Of a stretch of DNA of 64,000 nt, positions 33,526 to 56,390 are shown in pieces. Under the pieces are notes generated by a model. The model was given only the letters and a program-made list of their open reading frames with translations. It had not been told where the DNA came from and searched no databases. Numbering within the stretch: position 1 is the first letter of the stretch; each line of letters begins with the position of its first letter. The stretch covers positions 62,001 through 126,000 of the forward strand of contig NHZP01000077.1 of the NCBI GenBank assembly GCA_003313425.1. The letters are read 5' to 3'. The position numbers and the translations under genes are program-made. This DNA comes from Pseudopyrenochaeta lycopersici. Taxonomy: Eukaryota; Ascomycota; Dothideomycetes; Pleosporales; Pseudopyrenochaetaceae.

Positions 33526-33719
33526 ATACCCTCCTCCTCCTTAAATAACTATATTACTTCTTTGTACGTAGTTTAACCTTAACCTTATACTTATATAGGT
33601 AGCGTTATATTATTATGCTACAAAAGTAGAGATATTACGTGTACTTTTTCTTGTTCGTTTATAAGTAATTTTCCTCCTTTACCTGTTATTATTACCTAAT
33701 AACGTAAAGTAGAGGAGAG
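33526..33719. other. Gypsy-1 sequence between 3' LTR and the TIR element
   Basis: AT-rich RIPed sequence continuous in type with that at 41492-41614. Together they form the upstream region of the opposite-strand ORF, split by the TIR element. No gene seen. Confidence 0.4.
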
Positions 33720-33721
33720 TA

Positions 33722-33865
33722 CGGTGGACTATTACGCCACGAAGGTCGGAAACCAAAATCCGAAAACCAAAACCTCGAACCTGAACAATAATAACTATTT
33801 ACTCGCCCTTGCGCTCTACAACAGGGTATAAATAATAAAGTAATAGACTGTAATAGTTTTTATTT
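33722..33865 (+). repeat. Left TIR of the 7.8-kb element
   Basis: About 144 bp, matching the complement of 41346-41489 with only a few transitions. Contains ACCAAAA sub-repeats (AAACCAAAATCC, AAACCAAAACC). Confidence 0.9.
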
Positions 33866-34029
33866 ATAAATTAAATTTATTAATAAATAGTATTATTATA
33901 TAAACCTTTGTCACGTGTCGCACACTTAGGGATAAATTTACCCCACCCTCAGTTCTCTACTCTGTTCTATTACAGACTATTACCAGCGTCTACAAGCTAC
34001 ATGCAAGACTATTATTAATTATTACTAGC

Positions 34030-35777
34030 ATGCCTTAGCATAGTAAAGTAACTAAGTAAAGACTTTATATATAACACTAATTAAGCCTAGGGAAAGGAGG
34101 CAGGCCTCGTACAAACCTTGCCCTCTACGAGAAAGAATTAAAGGCGCTTTTTAAAGAAGGTCTTACATTCCGTTAGCTATTAGATTAGCTGTATAAGGAG
34201 TATTATATTAAGTATAGTATAACTACACTTAAGGATCGCTTTAAGAGATAGGAGGTTCAACGTCGCATTACGCCTAACGTAGAGTAACTCCTTAAGAACC
34301 GGATTATCGTGCTGTTTTATTAGCTTAATCTAGACGACTCTAAGATACTTTAGATACTCTATACTAAGGGCTATACTAGTCTTACAAAGGTAACTATTAT
34401 AAGACTTCGGCTATTACTAGGACTAAAACGTCGTATCCGTAATAAGGATGACTAAGAGGTTGCTAATATACTAGCCTATAGGCTTATTAAAGAGGAGCTA
34501 AAGAAGGGTATTATTAATAGCTATAGGAAGCAGATGCTATAAGTCTACTTTAAGTAATAGTATATGTTCTTTTCTCGCGATTGTCTTTTTAGAGCATACC
34601 GCTCTTTAAATCCAGAGGTAGTAGAGCGACGCCGTAATAATCAGCAACGAAGAAGAGGTGAATATATTGTGCCTGGCCTAAACTGGTGCTGGTCTATTGA
34701 TGGCTATGATAAACTAAAACCCTTTGGAATCTAAATCTATGGCTGTATTAACGCGTACTCTCGGTATATTATATAGGCATATATTAGAGTATCTACAGCA
34801 ACTGCGCTTAGCGTGCTCTATTAATACTTATATACTATAGGAGATATAAAGGTGTTTCCGCAGTATCTTCGCTCTAATTGTGGTAGTGAGACTGGGCAGA
34901 TCTTATACGCACATTATATGCTCTCAAAGTCAGGCTGACTAGATGTTACATAGGATAGGTGTTATATGTACGGTACAAGCACAGCAAACTAACGTATTAA
35001 ATCTTAGTGGCAACAGCTATTAAAGGGTCTGCTCTTTTAGTAGAGGGTAAGTAAAGCTCTAGGCTCTCTATTTAACGTAGCTTTGGACTATTACACTAAC
35101 TATTACAGGTGTACTTCTGAGACCTATAGACTACTAATTATTTCTCAAAGGACTGCCTCTCTAATATAGTAGTAATAGTTGCTATATATCTCCTAGTCCT
35201 ACGCCGTAAAATAAAGTCCTTCATCTTCTTATAGAATTGCCATTGTATACAGAAGCAGAAAAACTATCCTAATGTTATTACTAGAAAACCTAATATACTC
35301 TACATATGTCTACTAGTAGGGACAGTAGACTATAAGCAGACTCTACCCTAAGATAAGTACTAAAGAATCTGTTAAGAGGCACCAGCATAGGATATAGACG
35401 CTATCCTTCCCTTACCTACTTAGAGATAGTGTAACGTCCAGTTACAAGATATAGGCTTTAATCCTTATACTGAAGACCTAGGCGGCATATATAAACAGAA
35501 ACAGCCATTTAAGCGCTATTATTTAGAGCTGCGTCGTCACGCTGCTCTCTATATTAAAACAAGGCAAGTACCTATACTTTAACTTCTTAAGTCACCAACT
35601 GGTGGCTAGGATTTCCAGGTTAGTTTAAGTGCTATTATTTATAACAAGGTACTAACGCGATTACCTAGTTACTAGATATAGAAGGATGCGACTTTACAAC
35701 TAATAATGTAGAAGGTTAATACAAGGAGAATTAGGAAGGGGTTTGTGTGTCGGGTAATAGTCGGTAATAGTCGGTAA
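34030..35777 (+). pseudogene. Integrase-like (rve/DDE fold) transposase relic
   Basis: Starts at ATG 34030. The N-terminal third is basic and helical (KGGRPRTNLALYEKELKALF). The core reads GLNWCWSIDGYDKLKPFGI*I (first Asp, about 34675-34740), YLRSNCGSETGQI (second acidic position now Asn, about 34865-34905) and MYGTSTAN*RIKS*WQQLLK (expected Glu now Lys, about 34970-35030). The C-terminal domain is still visible as RYYLELRRHAALYIKT (about 35515-35570) and LLKSPTGG*DF. The order D-D-E with GTSTANQRIESWW-type motif is that of the fungal integrase-core-domain proteins (rve superfamily) often found in DNA elements. RIP removed two of three catalytic residues in this copy. Likely the element's transposase, inferred from position next to the left TIR. 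Stop at 35775-35777. Confidence 0.75.
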
Positions 35778-35891
35778 TAGTACTATTTCTAGCTTAGTCC
35801 CAGCCACAGTGTTAGCTCGCACACAACTATTTAAAGTCTATTTATCTATTAATTAGTCTATCTATAATATACTCTTATTACTCTTCTAAAT

Positions 35892-37122
35892 ATGGCGGCT
35901 ATATAGGGTCTATTCTGTATGGATAATAGTAGACCACACAACGACATGGACATCCTAGTTGGTCGTTATTGTACCTACTGCGGAATTTGAAACCCTGGGC
36001 TAAATAGCAGAGACAGTATGCTAGTAGAGATAAACGTTGATACCTTACTAGAGCAGGACTAACTATCTCGGCGGTTAATGACTGTTGCAGTCTCCTAAAT
36101 ACAACTATCTTGAAAAGTTGATCAGCTCGCCCCGCTTGCCTCTACTGCACAGCGTGCCTATCTTAAGAATAAGGCAGCTCTTCAGCGACTTAAATTAATT
36201 AATAGGCGGATAGGCGCCTAAGCCTAGCAAGCAAGTACTAGTAGTATAACAACAAAGTCTACATTAGGTCAGGCTTTAATTGTTAAAGTTGCCTTTGACG
36301 TTACTTTCGTCTATCTAATTTAGAATGGCGGCACTATTATTAAGGCTATTAATCTATATAGTACGTAAATACTATTCCTTATAATAGCCTGTAATAGTAC
36401 TAACAGACCTAGGTGGTAATATTGGTGTTCAGATCGCAAGCACTGTTGAATTCTCTTCCCTCCATAACTTCGTGCAGGACTTTCTTCTTTCTAAAGTTAG
36501 CTAAGTACGCCTACGAGATATACTTAACCTACCTCGCACATATGCTATTAAACTAACTGGAATAACGCCTTAATATTTCCCAGAATCCGCGTATAAATGT
36601 ACGTCTCTGCAATCGCTGCTTAAAAAGATACTATAGAAAGAAAGCAAGGATACTAGACGATTTATAGTTTACTTTAAGGATTATACACAAGAGGAGGACT
36701 ATAAGCTAAGGCTTACAACTCTAACACCTAAAAAGCCTAGACAAATTAGTTAGAGGCCTAAGATAAAATTAGAGTTATAAATTAAGGCAGAGAAGAGTAG
36801 TCTAGTTAAGGGCAAGGGCAAGGCTATTAGAGCTCTTAATACTGTTAGCAGCTTTAAAGACTTTACTAATATTAACGCACTAGACCTTACAGGCGATAGG
36901 GCTATTACGCCTACAGTAGAGACTATTACACGCAAGAGGGGTGTTTCACAGGTAGAGTAACCACAAGCAAGTCGAACTACACCGACACACACTGTCCTAG
37001 AAGATACAAGCGAAGCTAAACTAAGTCTAATAAGCTCTACGTTTACAGACTAAACTCCTGTTAAGGATACGCCGCTAATAACTACTTGTTATGCTACTAG
37101 ACGGAACCTAAAGGCTAAGTAA
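35892..37122 (+). pseudogene. Unknown gene 2 of the TIR element
   Basis: Begins at ATG 35892 (MAAI*GLFCMDNSRPHND), with a CTYCG motif at about 35970-35985. Middle frames break near 36390, perhaps at an intron. The C-terminal part reads ILNLPRTYAIKLTGITP*YF, then KKIL*KESKDTRRFIVYF and KDYTQEEDYKLRLTTLTPKK (36520-36740), followed by a Lys/Thr/Ser-rich tail, and ends at TAA 37120-37122. About 400 codons. Family not recognised. Same strand as and 115 bp downstream of the integrase-like gene. Its tail-to-tail neighbour (gene 3) ends only a few bases away. Confidence 0.5.
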
Positions 37123-37129
37123 ATATTTA

Positions 37130-37773
37130 ATTAAATGTATATTCTTTACTTAAATAATAACGTTACTTTCTTTTTAGCTACTCTTGCCTTTTAACAGCTT
37201 CTGGCGTGTATCTTGTCGTGTACGTAGCTAGTTATACGTCCAGTACTCTGAAAGCTTAATGTTAAACGCTGGTAATCTACTAAACCTTGCTTTTAGTTGG
37301 AAGTTTATACGTTAGCTATAGGAAATACCCTCGTCTATAAGGATTTGATCGATAGATAGCTAAGCCTTAGAGCTATCAATCTCCTTAGCCTTCTGAACCC
37401 AATGAATACCAGCGTGGATCTTGTAGCCATTAACAGCTGTTACATAAGCTATTACTCTGCGTCTATATATTAATAATATAGACTGTTGTCTAGAAAGCTT
37501 CTCTAGTTCTGCCTGCGCAAGCCTACGTTCCTCTTTGTCTAGTAAGCATAGCTGATCTTCCTTTAGCTGAAAAAGGGCAGCCTTTACTTTACTAATATAT
37601 ATATTATTTACAGATTGTGCCTAAGTAATAAGGAGTTTAGAGCTCTTAGCCTTACGTAACTAGTCGCAATATCTATTATTCTTCTGCGTAAATTTATTCC
37701 TAGACTTGCGGTATTATATAAACGGGTCTGACGGAGAGGGTAGAGCGTAGAGTAATATTGCGTTAGCAGCCAT
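37130..37773 (-). pseudogene. Unknown gene 3 of the TIR element, coiled-coil-like
   Basis: Minus-strand ATG at 37773 (MAANAILLYALPSPSDPFI). The frame stays readable for about 210 codons with few RIP stops. It contains a long charged helix with heptad-like spacing (SKVKAALFQLKEDQLCLLDK and EERRLAQAELEKLSRQQS, about 37595-37490) and then VIAYVTAVNGYKIHAGIHWV (about 37460-37400) and AKEIDSSKA*LSIDQILIDE. Composition is closer to normal coding DNA than in the flanking genes. No family recognised. Small coiled-coil protein genes beside the transposase are common in large DNA elements, but a role cannot be assigned. Confidence 0.55.
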
Positions 37774-38579
37774 TAACGCTATAATAAGATTAGAACTTAT
37801 TAAATAAGTACTTTAAGCAGGTAATAATACCTATATAGATGCGTCCTTATAGGATATTTACTATAGCAGTAATAGTCTTATAATAGTAGGTGTAGAGGCA
37901 GACGTATAGATAAGTAGACGGGGCCCTGCGTGGAAAATTAACTGAAGCTGATCTAGTAGGCTGTGCGTAAGAGTAGAACATTACGTAAGTATATTTAAGT
38001 GTAGCGTTATTATTAGTAGAAACAGAGACAGAGGTAATAGTGTGTATTAACTAGAAAACTATCTAGTTATATAGTCCAGAGGCATCCTAATATACTAAAG
38101 TACTACAGCATTATCTACGTAAAAGCGCCTTAAAGCGCCTAGGTATTATGCAAACTTAAGGCTATTACAGAGAATACCTAGACTATTACGATCTAGAATT
38201 GTAGTAGGCTTATATTCTTTATCTATCTAAAGGATTAAAGAATATGTTAATATGTTTCTCTAAGGGTATATCGCTAGTTTTGCAGGTAACTATATTAATA
38301 AAGTATTTAGCCTTTTCTCTATTAAAGTGCTTAAGGGGGAACCTGTTAAAGGAGCTTATATATATTAGTAATAGTCTAGTAATAGTCTATGTCTCTGCTT
38401 ACTAAGCGTTAATAAGAGTGCGGTGATAGTATAGCCTAGGGAGAGATATTGGCAGCCTATCTCTTGCTAACTAGATCTTAGACGTTGCGAATATTCCCTT
38501 AAGCTAGCAAGTATAGAATATAGCCAGAATAGTGCGTTCTAGTTTTGTAAATAGCTGCTAGAAAGGAAGCATTAGAAGC

Positions 38580-39560
38580 CTAGAATGACCGTTACACTTA
38601 AGACTACCTTTATTTTGCGCAGTTAAGTGCTAATACACCTAGCGAAGGATACTACACTATATTATAGTTAATATTTATATCTAGTCTCTAAAAAATAAGG
38701 TCTTACCTTATCTCCTGGGCGTATGTATAGCTAGGCTCTATTAAATATTTGTGTAGACCCTAGTAGAAGAAGGCGGAGGATTATCTATCTATGTATTAGC
38801 CTATGTAATAGTTAATGTATTAGTTGACTCTTACTTTGTACTGCCTATTGTTTATGCGGCGCACGTAGGCTTCGAAGGGGTATTTCTCTAAATACTCTAA
38901 TTTCTCTGAAGCTAATAGGATAGCTTTAGACTAATATCCCTGTACATATTCCTAGGAATAAGATATATAGAGTTTCAGCATATTAAACTTAGTCTCTCTA
39001 ATAATTTTATTATTAAGATCTAGGAGCTAGGGATTAATCTCGTCGTCTTTAGGACTAGAATCTACAATCTTTATTGCAGTATCTTTATCCCACACCTTAA
39101 GATTTAGGAGGCTAGATATAATAGTACCTGTAATAGTTAAGGAAGAAGTAAAGGCGTAAGTAAGTAGTGTAAAGTCTGGTCCTAGTTAAAAGATGCGACC
39201 CTGCGCTGTAATAAAGTAACTTATTAGCAGAGTTAGCTCTGTAGGAAACTTATGTAGTAGTGTTTACGACTAATACTTATTTGTAGTGAACCTAAATTCC
39301 TGTTAGAGCTATTATAAGGACTATTATAAAATCTTACTACTTATATACTAGAATATTTTTAGCCTAAATGCGTAGTTCTGCTATAAGACTTGGTTTATCT
39401 CCCTAGGCAGTATTCTGTAGGAGGTAATGCGCAGCTAGAATAAATTTAAGGTTAAAGAATCGTGAAAGAGCAGTATTAAAAGCAGCTTTGCCTTTTACCC
39501 TGCTAAAATTGCTTCCCTGCTGCTTCTCTCGACGAGCGTTGTTTTTAATAGTGTTTAGAT
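38580..39560 (-). pseudogene. Unknown gene 4 of the TIR element
   Basis: The minus frame is readable from about 39560 (TTLVERSSREAILAG*KAKL) to about 38580. Distinct blocks: TAQGRIF*LGPDFTLLTYAF (about 39210-39150), SSLLNLKVWDKDTAIKIVDS (about 39110-39050), SEKLEYLEKYPFEAYVRRIN near 38890 and YLIEPSYTYAQEIR near 38720. Almost all stops are TAG from CAG or TGG. No start codon is obvious. The stop-poor central part (39150-38850) supports a true gene. Family not recognised. Divergent from the histone-like gene, with the 192-bp repeat array between the two. Confidence 0.45.
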
Positions 39561-39769
39561 TTATTAAATATTACCTATTAAGCTTTCTCTTCTTCTAATT
39601 AGGCTGCTCTATATTAATATAATAGGCTATAATAGACTGTAGTAGTAGAGTTATAGTGTAGAGTTATAGGTTAAGAAGTAGCAAAGTTTTCTATATATAC
39701 TACACAGGACAGCTGCTATTAGGGATTACGTAGCCACAGGTAAAGGCAGGTAAAGTAGGTAAGTGTAGA

Positions 39770-40260
39770 TAGGATATACTACATTTACGTAGAAAACCGT
39801 CGCATTCTAAAGAAGACCTATTTCGTAATTGCATTAAGCAGCTAGTTTAGAAATAGGCTATTACAGTAACTATTACTCTACTGTTAAATTTTTCTAATTC
39901 TAAGGGTACCTAGAGCTTAGAGTAAATTTAACTTCTAGTAGGTAAAAGAAATAAGTGTAGATAAAGTATGCTAATTTTACGTAGAAAACTATTACATTCT
40001 AAAGAAGACCTATTTCGTAATTACATTAAGCAGCTAGTTTAGAAATAGGCTATTATAGTAACTATTACTCTACTGTTAAATTTTTCTAATTCTAAGGGTA
40101 CCTAGAGCCTAGAGTAAATTTAACTTCTAGTAGGTAAAAGAAATAAGTATAGATAGAGTATGCTAATTTTACGTAGAAAACTGTCGCATTCTAAAGAAGA
40201 CCTATTTCGTGATTATATTAAGCAGCTAGTTTAGAGATAGGTTATAAACTATTACTATAA
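39770..40260. repeat. 192-bp tandem repeat, about 2.5 copies
   Basis: The marker TTACGTAGAAAAC recurs at 39785, 39977 and 40169, exactly 192 bp apart, and AAGAAGACCTATTTCGT recurs with it. It lies between gene 4 and the histone-like gene, so could hold promoter or transposase-binding sequences (inference). Confidence 0.85.
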
Positions 40261-40514
40261 CTAATACATCTGTTAATATGCGTATAGGCTTACTTTTGTA
40301 GGCTTCTCTTACCTACTTTACCTAACTTTACTTTACCTTTATATCTGTTGTCTACTAAATATATATATTACTCTCTCTAGCCTTATTCTACGACCTTACG
40401 CCCTCGCTCTCTTACCCCCTATACTAGAGCTACTTTAAAACTATTATAAACTATTATAACTATCTTAATTTAACTATAATAGCTTACATAAAGACTTCGC
40501 ATAGGAAATAAGGA
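40261..40514. other. Presumed promoter region of the histone-like gene
   Basis: About 250 bp without coding features upstream of ATG 40515. Holds a TATATATATTA stretch near 40362 and a pyrimidine-rich segment (40370-40430), a common arrangement before fungal start sites. Confidence 0.3.
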
Positions 40515-41177
40515 ATGTATAGAGGCAAAGGGTCTAGGAAGACTACTATAAAGTCTGCTAGAAAGGCTCCTCAGAAATCTAATAAGGCTTCTTATAATAA
40601 TACTAATAAAGGTAGTAGTTATAATAGTCTGCCTAGTACTCCCTTACTAATTACCTACAGTTATTTAACTACAGAAGGTAATCTCCTATAACTTTAATAC
40701 TCCTAGAGCTGCTATCTACAGAGGGGTATCTAGTAGCAGCGTTAAAAAGAAGAAAACGCGCGGCAGTAAGCTTAAAGTACTGTAAATAAAAGACTATTAC
40801 TAATTTATAATAGTAGAAGCACTTTGTAAAATTTGGTACTACTAGAAATTAACTAGCACGCTTATACTGCCTACCTTATTCTGCTGCCTCGTTCGAGAGA
40901 TCGCTAGAGAAGTGTTAGGAAGAACTACACAGTAAGGAGGGTGTCGCTGGCAGCTAGCAGCGCTTAACGCCCTACAGGAATCAGCTAAATACTTTCTAAC
41001 TACTGTCCTCTTAGGTAAGAACTAATCGTAATAGTCTGTGTAATAGATTAATAACTATCTGCAGCCTTAAACTTAGCTGCTATTTATGCAAAGCGTATTA
41101 TAATCTAGTAGAAGGATATAAGGTTAGCATTAAAGCTGTTAAGTATGCTGAGTTCGTGGGCTCCTATTATAGACTAA
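40515..41177 (+). pseudogene. Histone H3-fold gene, CenH3/CENP-A-like, inside the TIR element
   Basis: ATG 40515 opens a basic tail (RGKGSRKTTIKSARKAPQKS) reminiscent of H3 tails. After a frame change near 40678-40708 the histone fold reads VEALCKIWYY*KLTSTLILP, LVREIAREVL, GGCRWQLAALNALQESAKY and FLTTVLL. A 50-bp GT-AG intron (41015-41064), with ATTAATAAC as likely branch site, restores the frame exactly into LNLAAIYAKRIII**KDIRL, matching the H3 segment NLCAIHAKRVTI-x2-KDIQLA. Stop TAA at 41175-41177. CenH3-like traits: Trp in RWQ where H3 has Phe, and a loop 1 about six residues longer than in H3. Six RIP-type stops make this copy dead. The first frame change is either a very short intron or an indel. 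It lies 170 bp from the right TIR and is clearly inside the element. Confidence 0.8.
41015..41064 (+). other. Intron in the histone-like gene
   Basis: 50 bp from GTAAGAACT to ATCTGCAG. Joining its edges keeps the H3 frame (phase 1 on both sides) through the junction of helix 2 and the AKR block. This size and these splice sites are typical of ascomycetes. Confidence 0.7.
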
Positions 41178-41345
41178 GTATGCAAGACAATAGGCTACTA
41201 GGACAGTAATAGTCGTAATAGTCTGATAAAGGCTATACTAGTTATAGGGTAGGCGGATAGGTTTACTCTGCGAAAGCGATTCATATGAGAGGGAATTTCT
41301 CTATGACTCATATGCGAGGTTTGGGGTTCAAATTCTAGATAGATT
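41178..41345. other. Spacer between histone-like gene and right TIR
   Basis: Holds two adjacent AGTAATAGTC/CGTAATAGTC motifs (41209-41227) and a hairpin with an 8-bp stem, CATATGAG (41282) and CTCATATG (41307), with an inner AGAG/CTCT pair. No gene. Confidence 0.5.
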
Positions 41346-41489
41346 GAATAAAAACTATTACAGTCTATTACTTTATTATTTATACCCTGTTGTAGAGCGC
41401 AAGGGCGGGTAAATGGTTATTATTGTTCAGGTTCGAGGTTTTGGTTTTCGGATTTTGGTTTCCGACCTTCGTGGCGTAATAGTCCACCG
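41346..41489 (-). repeat. Right TIR of the 7.8-kb element
   Basis: Mirror of 33722-33865, ending GGCGTAATAGTCCACCG next to TA. The last common base pairs are the run TTTTTATT on the inner side. Confidence 0.9.
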
Positions 41490-41614
41490 TAGGAGAGGTT
41501 AGTCGTTTGCTCGCTCGTGCGCATATAAAGAGCTTTTCCTCTAACTCTTTCTTCCTCTTTTACTGCTTAACTTTAACTTACTTGCGTACGACTTGTCTTC
41601 CTATTATTACTAAT

Positions 41615-43124: not shown

Positions 43125-44769
43125 GTATTGCTCTCTATCTTTATTTACACGAAGTCTAATTGTAACCTTAAGTTCCGCATTTAGTGCAGGTTAGTGGTGC
43201 TCGTTGCTGAGGCCGAGAAGCCTCCTCCTCCACCCTTAAGTTTAACGCTATTTTAGTAGCTACAGCTAACGCGCGACCTGCCTTAACTCGTAAGGCACCT
43301 CTAGCTGCAATATATTGTTACTGTTTATCCTTCTAACGTTGTAAACGCGTGTTTAAGGTATAAAGTTTGCTGTTTTCCTCTGTTAAGATTATAGCTAAGT
43401 TTATAGCTAGCTGACAGCCTTTAACAAGCTGAGCGAGGGCCCGGCTTAAGGGGCTTTGTGATTGACATTAAAGGAGCTCACGTATAAGGCGGGCCTGTTG
43501 ATTAAGTTAATTAGTAGTGTGAGGCGTTTCTGTTGTCCAAACAGCCTCAGCTGTGGCTGCTGTCTGTGGAGGAGACGGTGTGCGGATAACTGTTAATGTT
43601 GATAGGACACGTTCAGGATAAAACGGGACTAAGCCTGTCGCCTGAAAGCCTCTAAGGATGTTTAAAGCTAAGAAAACAGTTGTACGTATACGTGGATATA
43701 TATAGAGAAATTCGTCCTTATTAATAAACTGCACCTGTTAGCGCGTAAGCCTGTCTATTGCTTATCCGTACGCTGTCTTAAGAGGCGAGAAGTAACTAAT
43801 ATTAAGAGGCTGTAGCTTATAAGACGTATAAGGAGGCATGCAGAGGGTAATAATATTCCTCTCTGCGCAGTAAGTATCGAACGCAGGCGTTGCGTGGCTG
43901 CTGTAGCTATCTAGTATAAGAAGGCGATAGCTTCTAATTGTACGTGAGGCTGTAAGGACGTTGAAATGCTTTAACTAGGCAAGGCTAAGGTCGTCAGTTG
44001 TCTATCTGTTATTGCTTACACTAATACTCTAGTCGCTAGGCAGCTTAAGCTTAGGACTATACTATAACGCCTGGTAGACCTTGCCCTTAAGGATAATAAA
44101 GGGAGGCAGTATAAAGCCTACAGCGCTCACATACTTGATTGTCGTCGTCCAGTCACAGTTGCTAGGCTGTACAACAGTTGCTCGTCCGATAGTATCAGAG
44201 CTAGTAATAACCTTTAAAGTTGAGGCGATACCTATTATAAACCCAGTCTTATTAAAGTTATACGTGTCCTCGTCTAATACCCTGTACGTCTGAATCGTGT
44301 CCCTTATAAGGCTATACTAGCTGTTTATCTTTATAGGATCCTCACATTTTGCGCGCTGTGAGTGGAATTTACGGTTCTATTTTGTTTGAAGCTCTGACTA
44401 AGCCCTAACAAAACGAGAGACCCAGTTTTTACTAAGAGGAGGTGGAGGAGGCTGCTGGCCTCGTGCAGCGAGAAGAGCGTCTCCTATCTGACGTACGTTA
44501 ATAATATGAGGCGGAAAGCCTCGTCGATTAAGCTCTAGTATCCATTGAACAAGGCTCTGTTCCTCAGTAGGCGTTAGCTTACGTTTCCGTGCGTTGGTGG
44601 TAGGTTGAGGCTGATAGCCTTTGAGGCGCCGTTGCAGCGTTGTTCGAGGGACACTAAACAGGTGCGCAGCCCTGCGCACACTTTTAATTTGTTGCAAATT
44701 AATTGCCTGAGACGCAAGAAGGACTTGGCCCTCCTTTTGAGCTACTAGAGGCTGTCGTTGCGTGGCCAT
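43125..44769 (-). pseudogene. Pogo-family transposase, lightly damaged (element B)
   Basis: I favour ATG 44769 (MATQRQPLVAQKEG) because the earlier ATG 44817 lies in the TIR. The first 130 codons are open: a psq-type helix-turn-helix (SVRRAAHLFSVPRTTLQRRL) and a CENP-B-type DNA-binding region (LTPTEEQSLVQWILELNRRG). The catalytic blocks are YNFNKTGFIIG (first Asp-Glu pair altered), LLILDSYSSHA, and FDTYCAERNIITLCMPP followed by LQPLN. The C-terminus continues past the open segment ending at 43507 through EENSKLYTLNTRLQR to a zinc knuckle CTKCGT*GYN*TSC (about 43195-43155). Fewer than fifteen RIP stops. Pogo transposases share ancestry with CENP-B. Confidence 0.85.
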
Positions 44770-44800
44770 TTGAGTTGTTGTGTGGGCAAGCGCGTTGGTG

Positions 44801-44851
44801 TTGATGAGGTGGCCCACTGACTGGTGTTGCCCACTGAGTGGTGGAACACGT
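44801..44851 (-). repeat. Right TIR of pogo element B
   Basis: 51 bp identical to the complement of 43009-43059. The longest upstream ATG of the transposase (44817) falls inside it. Confidence 0.92.
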
Positions 44852-55040: not shown

Positions 55041-56390
55041 CAGTGCCCTTCCAAAAGTTCTCGCCGCGCTAGTGCGACGCGCCCCATCACAACAACACCA
55101 CCTCAACTTTGCAGTATTATAATTATGCCACCACAACGCCAAATTCTTTAAGAAATAGACCAAAATACGCGCAGACGTCCTAATTTAACAGTCCAGCAGC
55201 GGAATCAAATTATTGGCATGCTGCATGGTGGTGCTACAGTCGCTGAAGTTGCTGACGCGTTTGGCCGCAGTGAACGCGGTATACGCGACATTAGGAAAAG
55301 ATATTAACAAACTGGCAAAACAACAGATAAACCTCGCAGCGGTAGACCACCTATACTATCGCTTTATTAGAAGAAGATTATCTATCGCAAAGCACGCGCA
55401 CAGCTAAAAATTACGTACAAAGAGCTAGCTGAAGAGGCAGTAGTCATGAATCCAGATAGCACCACTTTGAAGCCACCTAGCTATTCCACATTGCGGCGGT
55501 ATCTTAAAGGACAAGGCCTCACTAAATCTCCTTGTAAAAAGCGTCTAAAGCTTAACAAATCGCGTGCGTTGCGGCGGCTTAAGTTCTGTAGAGAGTACTC
55601 TTCTTTCCCGTGGCATTAACGCACTATGCGCTTCTCAGATAAGTGCTCCTTTCAGAAGGGCTTAGGGTAAACATAAGAGTGGGTATTTCGCAATTTACAA
55701 GAGAAATAGAAGATAATAATGCTTTAAACCTATAGCTGTGGTAAGAAGGTAGCACAGATGGTGTGGGGTTTAATATGGCTGGATGAACGTGGGTGTGCGC
55801 AGAGGAGCCCTCTGGTCATAATGGAGCGCGATTCTGATGCTCCAAACTATGGATACTCCGCCAAAAGTTACATTAAGGCTTTGAAGAAAGGCCTCTTACG
55901 ATTATGGCGTCGTTCACAGCTTTTCATGCAGGATAACGCGCGCGTACATACAGCTGCAGCTACAAGGAGATTTCTAGCTAAGCACCACATCAGTACTGTT
56001 GACTGGCCACCCTACTCACCTGATCTCAACCTAATTAAGCACCTCTGGTGGTATCTTAAAAAGCTTATGTATAGATCCTATCCTCAGTACAACAATTATA
56101 GTTAAGCTATAGAGGAGTGGGATGGCTTTTGCGCTGCATTGAAAAGTTGCTGGCGTCGCATACTAGCCAGCCTGATTCGGCGCCTTATCATGAGCATGCC
56201 ACGACGAATTAATGCATGCAAGAAAGCGCGAGGGTGGCAAACGAAATATTAAACCCGTGCGCAACTACTGCTTTAAAAAAAATTAAATTATATTATATAT
56301 TGGCTGAGATTCATGGTGTTGAAGTTTTGTGCCCATGTGCTGGTGAGGGTGGCTCGTGCGTGCGCGGCGAGAACTTTTGGAAGGGCACTG
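55041..56390 (+). mobile_element. Tc1/mariner-type DNA transposon, complete ends
   Basis: 1350 bp with perfect ~29-bp TIRs (CAGTGCCCTTCCAAAAGTTC inward) flanked by TA (55039-55040, 56391-56392). It sits in Gypsy-2 between RNase H and integrase and is clearly less RIPed than the surrounding retrotransposon, so it is the younger insertion. Confidence 0.93.
55125..56252 (+). pseudogene. Tc1-like transposase, catalytic residue lost
   Basis: ATG 55125, stop TAA 56250-56252, about 375 codons, the usual Tc1 length. The paired helix-turn-helix region reads RNQIIGMLHGGATVAEVADA and RSERGIRDIRKRY. The DDE core: MRFSDKCSF (first Asp, about 55630), LFMQDNARVHTA (second Asp, 55920-55955) and WPPYSPDLNLIKHLWW (56005-56050). 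In Tc1 proteins the last motif has Glu before His; here it is Lys, a G-to-A change that alone would kill catalysis. Roughly ten TAA/TAG stops of RIP type break the N-terminal two thirds, while 55758-56105 is open. One component of the nested Gypsy-2 stack. Confidence 0.9.

Follow-up and report, generated by a model that had tools for sequence, protein, structure and literature searches.

Histone H3-like genes are already known, from the accessible parts of two reports, on hAT transposons of a few related fungi. In Pyrenophora tritici-repentis, such a gene (H3L) lies between the TIRs of a hAT element that also contains a transposase gene and an ORF without assigned function, and that is present in many copies. 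The element is described there in 5.6 and 2.3 kb forms with little RIP, and its H3L, with a changed N-terminal tail, as matching neither H3 nor CenH3 completely (PMC3538342, accessible sections). In Pseudocercospora, Cercospora and Sphaerulina, an H3-like sequence was multiplied by a TIR transposon and inactivated by RIP; as far as the available text goes (PMC6710886), these elements are of the hAT type, with an 8-bp duplication, a 20-bp TIR, a length of ~9.5 kb in P. fijiensis and an H3 without introns. An earlier note on the DNA analysed here, written without database searches, knew of no described transposon family with a histone cargo, which these published hAT cases contradict. Another fungal element, Styx of Zymoseptoria, measures 7,927 bp and has TIRs, a 6-bp target duplication, exposure to RIP and an integrase with three other genes; its reported accessory genes are GATA, CCHC and DUF3577 and not a histone (PMC10853768). 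Among the top entries of our literature search, made mostly without subscription papers, no non-hAT transposon was described as having an H3-like gene, and the word histone is absent from the text of PMC9594970 (term search). What is new in the locus described below is a carrier of the integrase type, unrelated to hAT, together with a protein that leans towards CenH3 and a histone gene with introns; two of the latter lie at places shared with a hAT-borne H3 and not with host H3 or CENP-A.

The window, that is, the whole stretch of 64,000 nucleotides that was analysed, corresponds to C77:62001-126000 in a 62.7-Mb host genome of 188 contigs, and its composite RIP index is positive in 30 of 32 two-kb bins. 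It contains a 7,772-bp copy of a DNA transposon with a histone gene (33720-41491), delimited by TIRs and a target duplication. The left TIR of 145 bp, which starts TACGGTGGACTATTACGCC (33720..33864, plus strand), and the right TIR of the same length (41347..41491, minus strand) are identical at 143 of 145 positions in the alignment match line, and GGAGAG stands on either side of them (33714..33719 and 41492..41497, unstranded). The TIRs that the earlier note had placed around the histone gene are therefore real. With its TIRs, 6-bp duplication, length of about 8 kb and integrase gene, the element is Styx-like (~7.9 kb in the latter), a likeness by description and not by integrase sequence; no Pfam match to GATA, CCHC or DUF3577 was found in seven element pieces (two of the transposase, and ORF3, 4, 5, 8 and 9). 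With the Pyrenophora hAT it shares an H3-like gene between TIRs in many copies (nine), but it differs in its integrase core (PF24764) in place of a hAT transposase, its 6-bp rather than 8-bp duplication, its size of 7.77 kb, its larger number of ORFs and its CenH3-leaning fold, H3L being compared by published description only, from the accessible text. The Pseudocercospora-group elements, as available in print, are set apart by the three introns of the window gene, the 145-bp TIR, the duplication length and another transposase. Polintons (Mavericks) are 15-20 kb long and encode DNA polymerase B and packaging genes; this assignment was ruled out by the size of 7.8 kb and by the lack of any polymerase or capsid match in the same seven pieces.

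The 1,041-bp right end (histone side), used as a query, was matched over its full length at nine places, namely in the window itself and, with 92-94% identity, at eight others, and the TIR part alone gave 10 further matches in the genome, the window's own left end included. The transposase adjoins all 10 of the latter, and the histone gene is present on 9/9 histone-side ends; no histone-side end without it was seen among the full TIR matches of this genome. The claim of a histone gene inside a DNA transposon thus holds on a larger scale than first proposed, as the gene is a regular component of the element, and a fragment captured by a single copy is ruled out by the nine ends. Altogether, 11 copies were seen, nine with and two without the histone gene: one of the latter (C77:187 kb) stops inside the repeat array ahead of the gene and the other (C5) ends after the first 2,052 bp. 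Another copy (C68) has kept the histone gene, and its first 554 bp, including the left TIR, are missing. The 6-bp duplications are identical in four of the seven copies with both ends (window, C122, C2 and C4), match at 5/6 positions in C33 and do not match in C14 and C15. The least mutated copy, C122, in which the histone gene is coding-intact and the other element genes also have open frames, is interrupted by a Copia retrotransposon that lies between ORF5 and ORF8. A tblastn search with its pieces gave the order TIR, transposase, ORF3, ORF4, ORF5 (minus), ORF8 (minus), ORF9 (minus), histone, TIR, and the transposase, five ORFs and histone gene are all present in 8/9 histone-bearing copies, some with nested insertions between them; in the ninth (C4) the component search covered part of the copy, without ~20 kb between its ends. 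Places with 82% identity to the element TIR over 79 bp (in C42:357991-367311 and at C34:430655) are possibly a diverged or non-autonomous relative; no element gene was matched by tblastn at E 1e-5 in the stretches examined there.

The transposase gene (34081..35672, plus strand) consists of two frame pieces that overlap and are probably joined across an intron. It is RIP-broken in the window, and both pieces are open in C122. Its integrase core matches rva_4 (PF24764) at E=1.5e-17, and the matches to an N-terminal Clr5 and to rve are weak and below cut-offs. Clathrospora elynae has a 498-aa relative, with 77% identity to the first piece and 71% to the second. Related transposases also occur in Plenodomus and Lindgomyces, that of Plenodomus lindquistii being, with the Clathrospora one, the nearest from a named species, and this distribution suggests a pleosporalean host; no relative was found in viral contigs with the six peptide patterns searched. 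The PF24764 profile matches only three places in this genome, presumably because most element copies are RIP-broken; at C11:184300-186400 there is a diverged relative with four stops inside the match. The remaining frames, with lengths as in C122, are ORF3 (166 aa, 35868..36365, plus), ORF4 (248 aa, 36388..37131, plus), which may form one gene with ORF3 as a further exon, ORF5 (212 aa, 37177..37812, minus), ORF8 (160 aa, 38826..39302, minus) and ORF9 (118 aa, 39340..39639, minus), the last two possibly exons of one gene. All five are without assigned function: they gave no Pfam match above cut-off, and the predicted structures of ORF5 and ORF8 were too poor for use (mean pLDDT 42 and 37). NCBIfam profiles added nothing useful to the analysis. 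Elsewhere in the window, 3 kb to the right of the element, an open frame (44398-44850, minus) has HTH_psq and Tc5-type DNA-binding domains as in pogo-type transposases, and a DDE_3 endonuclease match as in Tc1/mariner-type transposons lies at 55728-56105 (plus).

The H3-like histone gene, delineated by comparison with the C122 copy, comprises four exons on the plus strand (40479-41201). Exons 1 (40479..40611) and 2 (40661..40765) encode the tail, which in C122 begins MARTKTSHRK and ends GGVKKKKTRG. Exon 3 (40814..41014) encodes the ALREI helix, alpha 1, a long loop 1, RWQ and alpha 2, and exon 4 (41065..41201), which opens with SNLAAIHAKRITIQQKDMRLALKL in C122, includes the stop. The introns of 49 nt (GTAGTA...CTACAG, 40612..40660), 48 nt (GTAAGC...TAATAG, 40766..40813) and 50 nt (GTAAGA...CTGCAG, 41015..41064) are all GT-AG and in phase 1. 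The last of them is the frame-restoring 50-bp intron recognised earlier, and the motifs named with it, from LVREIAREVL to KDIRLAL, are present in that order; the gene span first given (40515..41177) does contain a histone gene, but is slightly too short. In C122 the frame is intact over 191 aa, and its product matches PF00125 (Histone) at E=1.7e-26 over residues 47-171, with listed relatives that are largely H3 and CenH3 proteins, as the profile check suggested in the earlier note would have it. This E-value, together with the recurrence of the 1,041-bp end at eight other places, puts the histone match beyond chance. The window gene is a RIP-broken pseudogene: its start codon is lost, seven internal stops are present (counted in this copy only) and, counting the stop codon, 46 of its 192 codon positions are changed relative to C122. 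Over the 1,041 bp, 75 of its 76 differences from C122 are C>T or G>A; the eight other copies have 75 to 151 such changes against C122, 0 to 3 in the reverse direction and 0 to 5 others, and CpA is the context in 146 of 217 C/T or A/G columns. Differing almost only by RIP, the copies appear to stem from one recent source. Derivation of the gene as a pseudogene of host CenH3 or H3 is ruled out by its position between TIRs with a target site duplication and by its intron positions.

The fold of the encoded protein has RWQ, QQKD and a loop 1 six residues longer than in host H3 (C1:593.5k) and three longer than in host CENP-A (C9:445.4k), the latter named so from its RWQ and loop 1; the Trp in RWQ and the longer loop 1, previously cited as CenH3 hallmarks, are thus both present. 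Loop 1 aligns without gaps to that of cnp1, which we take to be the CENP-A of S. pombe, and cnp1 is the top PDB sequence match (91.2 bits, with 85.2 for the best chain named Histone H3 and 84.6 for a Cse4). At the 23 fold sites that differ between host H3 and host CENP-A, the element histone agrees with CENP-A at 6, with H3 at 2 and with neither at 15. Over the fold, 53/87 residues are shared with host CENP-A and 48/84 with host H3, at scores of 239 and 212; tblastn gives 46% identity to CENP-A (128 aa) and 51% to H3 (96 aa), a divergence that keeps percent identity alone from deciding between the two. A C-terminal Trp corresponds to that of host CENP-A in one alignment and is unaligned in another. 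The tail is H3-like, with MARTK, KAPRK and GGVKK kept, all of them absent from host CENP-A, so that the divergent tail of CenH3/CENP-A is lacking. The RW motif and longer loop 1 are therefore shared with both host CENP-A and cnp1, and QQKD with the host copy, whereas the tail, the location on a transposon and the intron places, which differ from those of the host gene, are not.

The tree was built from 31 rows picked from the best 120 of 1,169 relatives (four labelled CENP-A by RW motif) and four proteins of this genome. The element histone stands there on a very long branch (1.67) in a weak group (62/80) with host CENP-A and three other ascomycete rows: a Talaromyces protein, labelled CENP-A from its RW motif and named histone H3 in one source, and the divergent H3-like proteins P0044 (Tricladium varicosporioides) and P0011 (Watsoniomyces obsoletus). 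The latter two contain TEFExTNxAAIHAKRVTIQQKDM and could be transposon-borne H3L or odd CENP-A paralogs. The AU test gave p values of 0.394 for a grouping with host CENP-A, 0.482 with the hAT-borne H3L of this genome and 0.371 with seven CENP-A rows, and 0.05 when the element histone was forced together with 12 canonical H3 rows. The tree against host H3 and CenH3 called for earlier thus yielded the weak grouping with host CENP-A and did not settle the place. Among the best 120 of 1,169 matches, no relative is more than 58% identical, and a broader search for histones, with a profile made from three sequences, was dominated by ordinary H3-like proteins and returned nothing useful. Judged from its sequence, the element protein is a CenH3-leaning H3-like histone and not a CenH3. 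The assignment in the earlier note to centromeric rather than canonical H3 is accordingly supported for the fold, as a leaning, by the diagnostic sites and the cnp1 match, but not for the tail, and the tree group is weak.

Another observation is that the genome contains a second transposon with an H3 gene. A PF00125 profile search gave at least 12 further H3-like frames with stops, all in another repeat, a hAT-like element of 5,878 bp (5.88-kb; C89:53578-59455) with the TIR TAGGGTGGCAAATGGG, the 8-bp duplication GTGCAGGC and at least 12 additional copies no shorter than 5.1 kb. Its minus strand encodes a hAT-like C-terminal motif, identified by visual inspection and not by profile. More generally, at least 150 hAT dimerisation domains were scored in 680 candidates, and most of those listed are without stops, despite the heavy RIP in the window. 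The hAT-borne H3 is RIP-broken, lies near one element end, reads xARTRPPPKR (start codon lost) and has an RF-type fold and an H3-type loop 1; at the same diagnostic sites it agrees with H3 at 8, with CENP-A at 2 and with neither at 11. The two carriers have in common an H3-like gene near one end of a TIR transposon, but differ in duplication length, TIR, hAT-like motif and the H3-type RF and loop 1. Similarity of the window element's transposase and other ORFs to the hAT element is only at chance level (E 2.4 or worse).

Two intervening stretches were aligned through four copies of the hAT-borne H3; the first stretch is without the GTAAGT donor in C60. In copy C6, one intron (GTAAGT...TTTACAG, 48 nt) lies in the Thr codon of GTVALREI and the second (GTAACT...TTTAG, 46 or 49 nt) just after the codon matching the Glu of LFED, both in phase 1; the splice sites were chosen to restore the H3 frame, which fixes the places to about one codon. 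Introns 2 and 3 of the window element histone have the same places and phases. By eye, the introns of host H3 interrupt the Arg codon of TARK and the VTIQ Gln codon, and host CENP-A has one in the tail and one just before VREIA, so that the two positions common to both transposon histones are absent from either host gene. This suggests, on intron places read from the DNA, that both descend from one transposon-H3 ancestor, or else from an older host gene in which those introns were present.

The locus is best explained as a multigene DNA transposon of the integrase type, inactivated here by RIP, to whose regular genes a divergent CenH3-leaning H3 belongs, and we tentatively propose that H3L may shield the element from silencing. 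From an active element, H3L would be made, would pair with host H4 and would replace host H3 in nucleosomes at or close to the element. H3K9 methylation and HP1 binding would be poor on such nucleosomes, and the element would be shielded from the repeat silencing that heterochromatin and DNA methylation bring about in such fungi; instead or in addition, the CenH3-like loop 1 might alter deposition timing or chaperone choice. The K9 motif serves in H3K9 methylation and HP1 binding, and pairing with H4 is general biochemistry of H3. Around lysine 9 the element histone reads HRKQG where H3 has ARKSTG, and the hAT-borne H3L reads PPPKR, a changed context from which poor methylation and HP1 binding would be expected; the residues of the H3-H3 contact are retained in IHAKR and QQKD. 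That H3L is incorporated with H4, and that it escapes K9 methylation and HP1, is what we infer. The repeated association of H3-like genes with transposons, two unrelated ones in this genome, in both near an end, and the published hATs, argues for a use to the transposon. Any protection would be incomplete, given the RIP-type changes in the eight other copies. No diverged relative of the element with a histone gene was found, and the absence of a histone above 58% identity among the best 120 of 1,169 matches, set against the 77% identical Clathrospora transposase, means that conservation of the cargo across species is not established.

Shielding by H3L competes with passive transduplication, a serious if somewhat doubtful alternative in which an ancestor captured a host H3 or CENP-A gene by accident and the gene hitch-hikes and drifts with no role in transposition. 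The hAT cases were read in this way in the accessible text of both reports (PMC6710886, PMC3538342), and the great divergence of the protein, seen in its end branch, and the lack of a close relative in another species among the best 120 of 1,169 matches are consistent with drift. However, the three-intron frame and complete histone fold are intact in the least RIPed copy despite that divergence, the gene stands on every histone-side end, and a second, unrelated transposon of the same genome also has an H3 gene. Moreover, the intron positions match neither host H3 nor host CENP-A, which makes a recent capture from either unlikely.

The consequences drawn in the earlier note, namely that a CenH3-like protein might mark insertions as centromere-like, bias segregation or target integration to centromeric chromatin, appear improbable. 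They would fit RWQ, the gap-free loop 1, QQKD, the six against two diagnostic sites and the C-terminal Trp of one alignment, and also a private array beside the gene of three tandem nucleosome-sized repeats of 192 bp, the third 63% alike (39748..40323, plus strand, between ORF9 on the minus and the histone gene on the plus strand). All 25 genomic matches to these repeats fall within copies of the element, and they may serve as a divergent promoter, as sites for the transposase or as a nucleosome-sized array. Against a centromeric role stand the small number of units (two to three per copy), the H3-like tail and the weak tree support for placement with CENP-A. Moreover, the composite RIP index of one-kb insertion flanks is negative in 13/19 and positive in 6/19, the sign being taken per flank and not against a genome-wide baseline, and the flanks, except those of the window, including ~10 bases of TIR. 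Both window flanks are RIP-rich and belong to the six. Targeting to RIP-rich or centromere-like DNA is thus unsupported, and the suggested integration into centromeric chromatin is not borne out.

Some integrases act on nucleosomal DNA, and the histone gene adjoins the right TIR in 9/9 copies, but a role of H3L as a cofactor of transposition, either wrapping the element ends for the integrase or tethering that enzyme to nucleosomes, appears improbable, as we know of no sequence link between H3L and the transposase, and Clathrospora, Plenodomus and Lindgomyces have related transposases with no histone among the best 120 of 1,169 matches.

Beyond shielding by H3L at this locus, a wider and speculative reading, which we consider rather unlikely, is that fungal DNA transposons recurrently contain H3-like histones as a module that can be exchanged between them. 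An H3L gene lineage would have moved between hAT and integrase-type elements, and the present branch, with its CenH3-type fold and own nucleosome-sized array, would allow the element to set up private chromatin and so to evade silencing or make use of centromere machinery. Transposons normally suffer the chromatin of their host, and elements that bring their own histone would reverse this relation. One published carrier class alone was possibly an accident of gene capture. With a second, unrelated carrier class, a hAT-like carrier in the same genome, shared intron positions and a CenH3-leaning fold, the use of H3 variants by transposons becomes a testable question, and a further one is whether transposon histones have ever been sources of, or rivals to, host CenH3.
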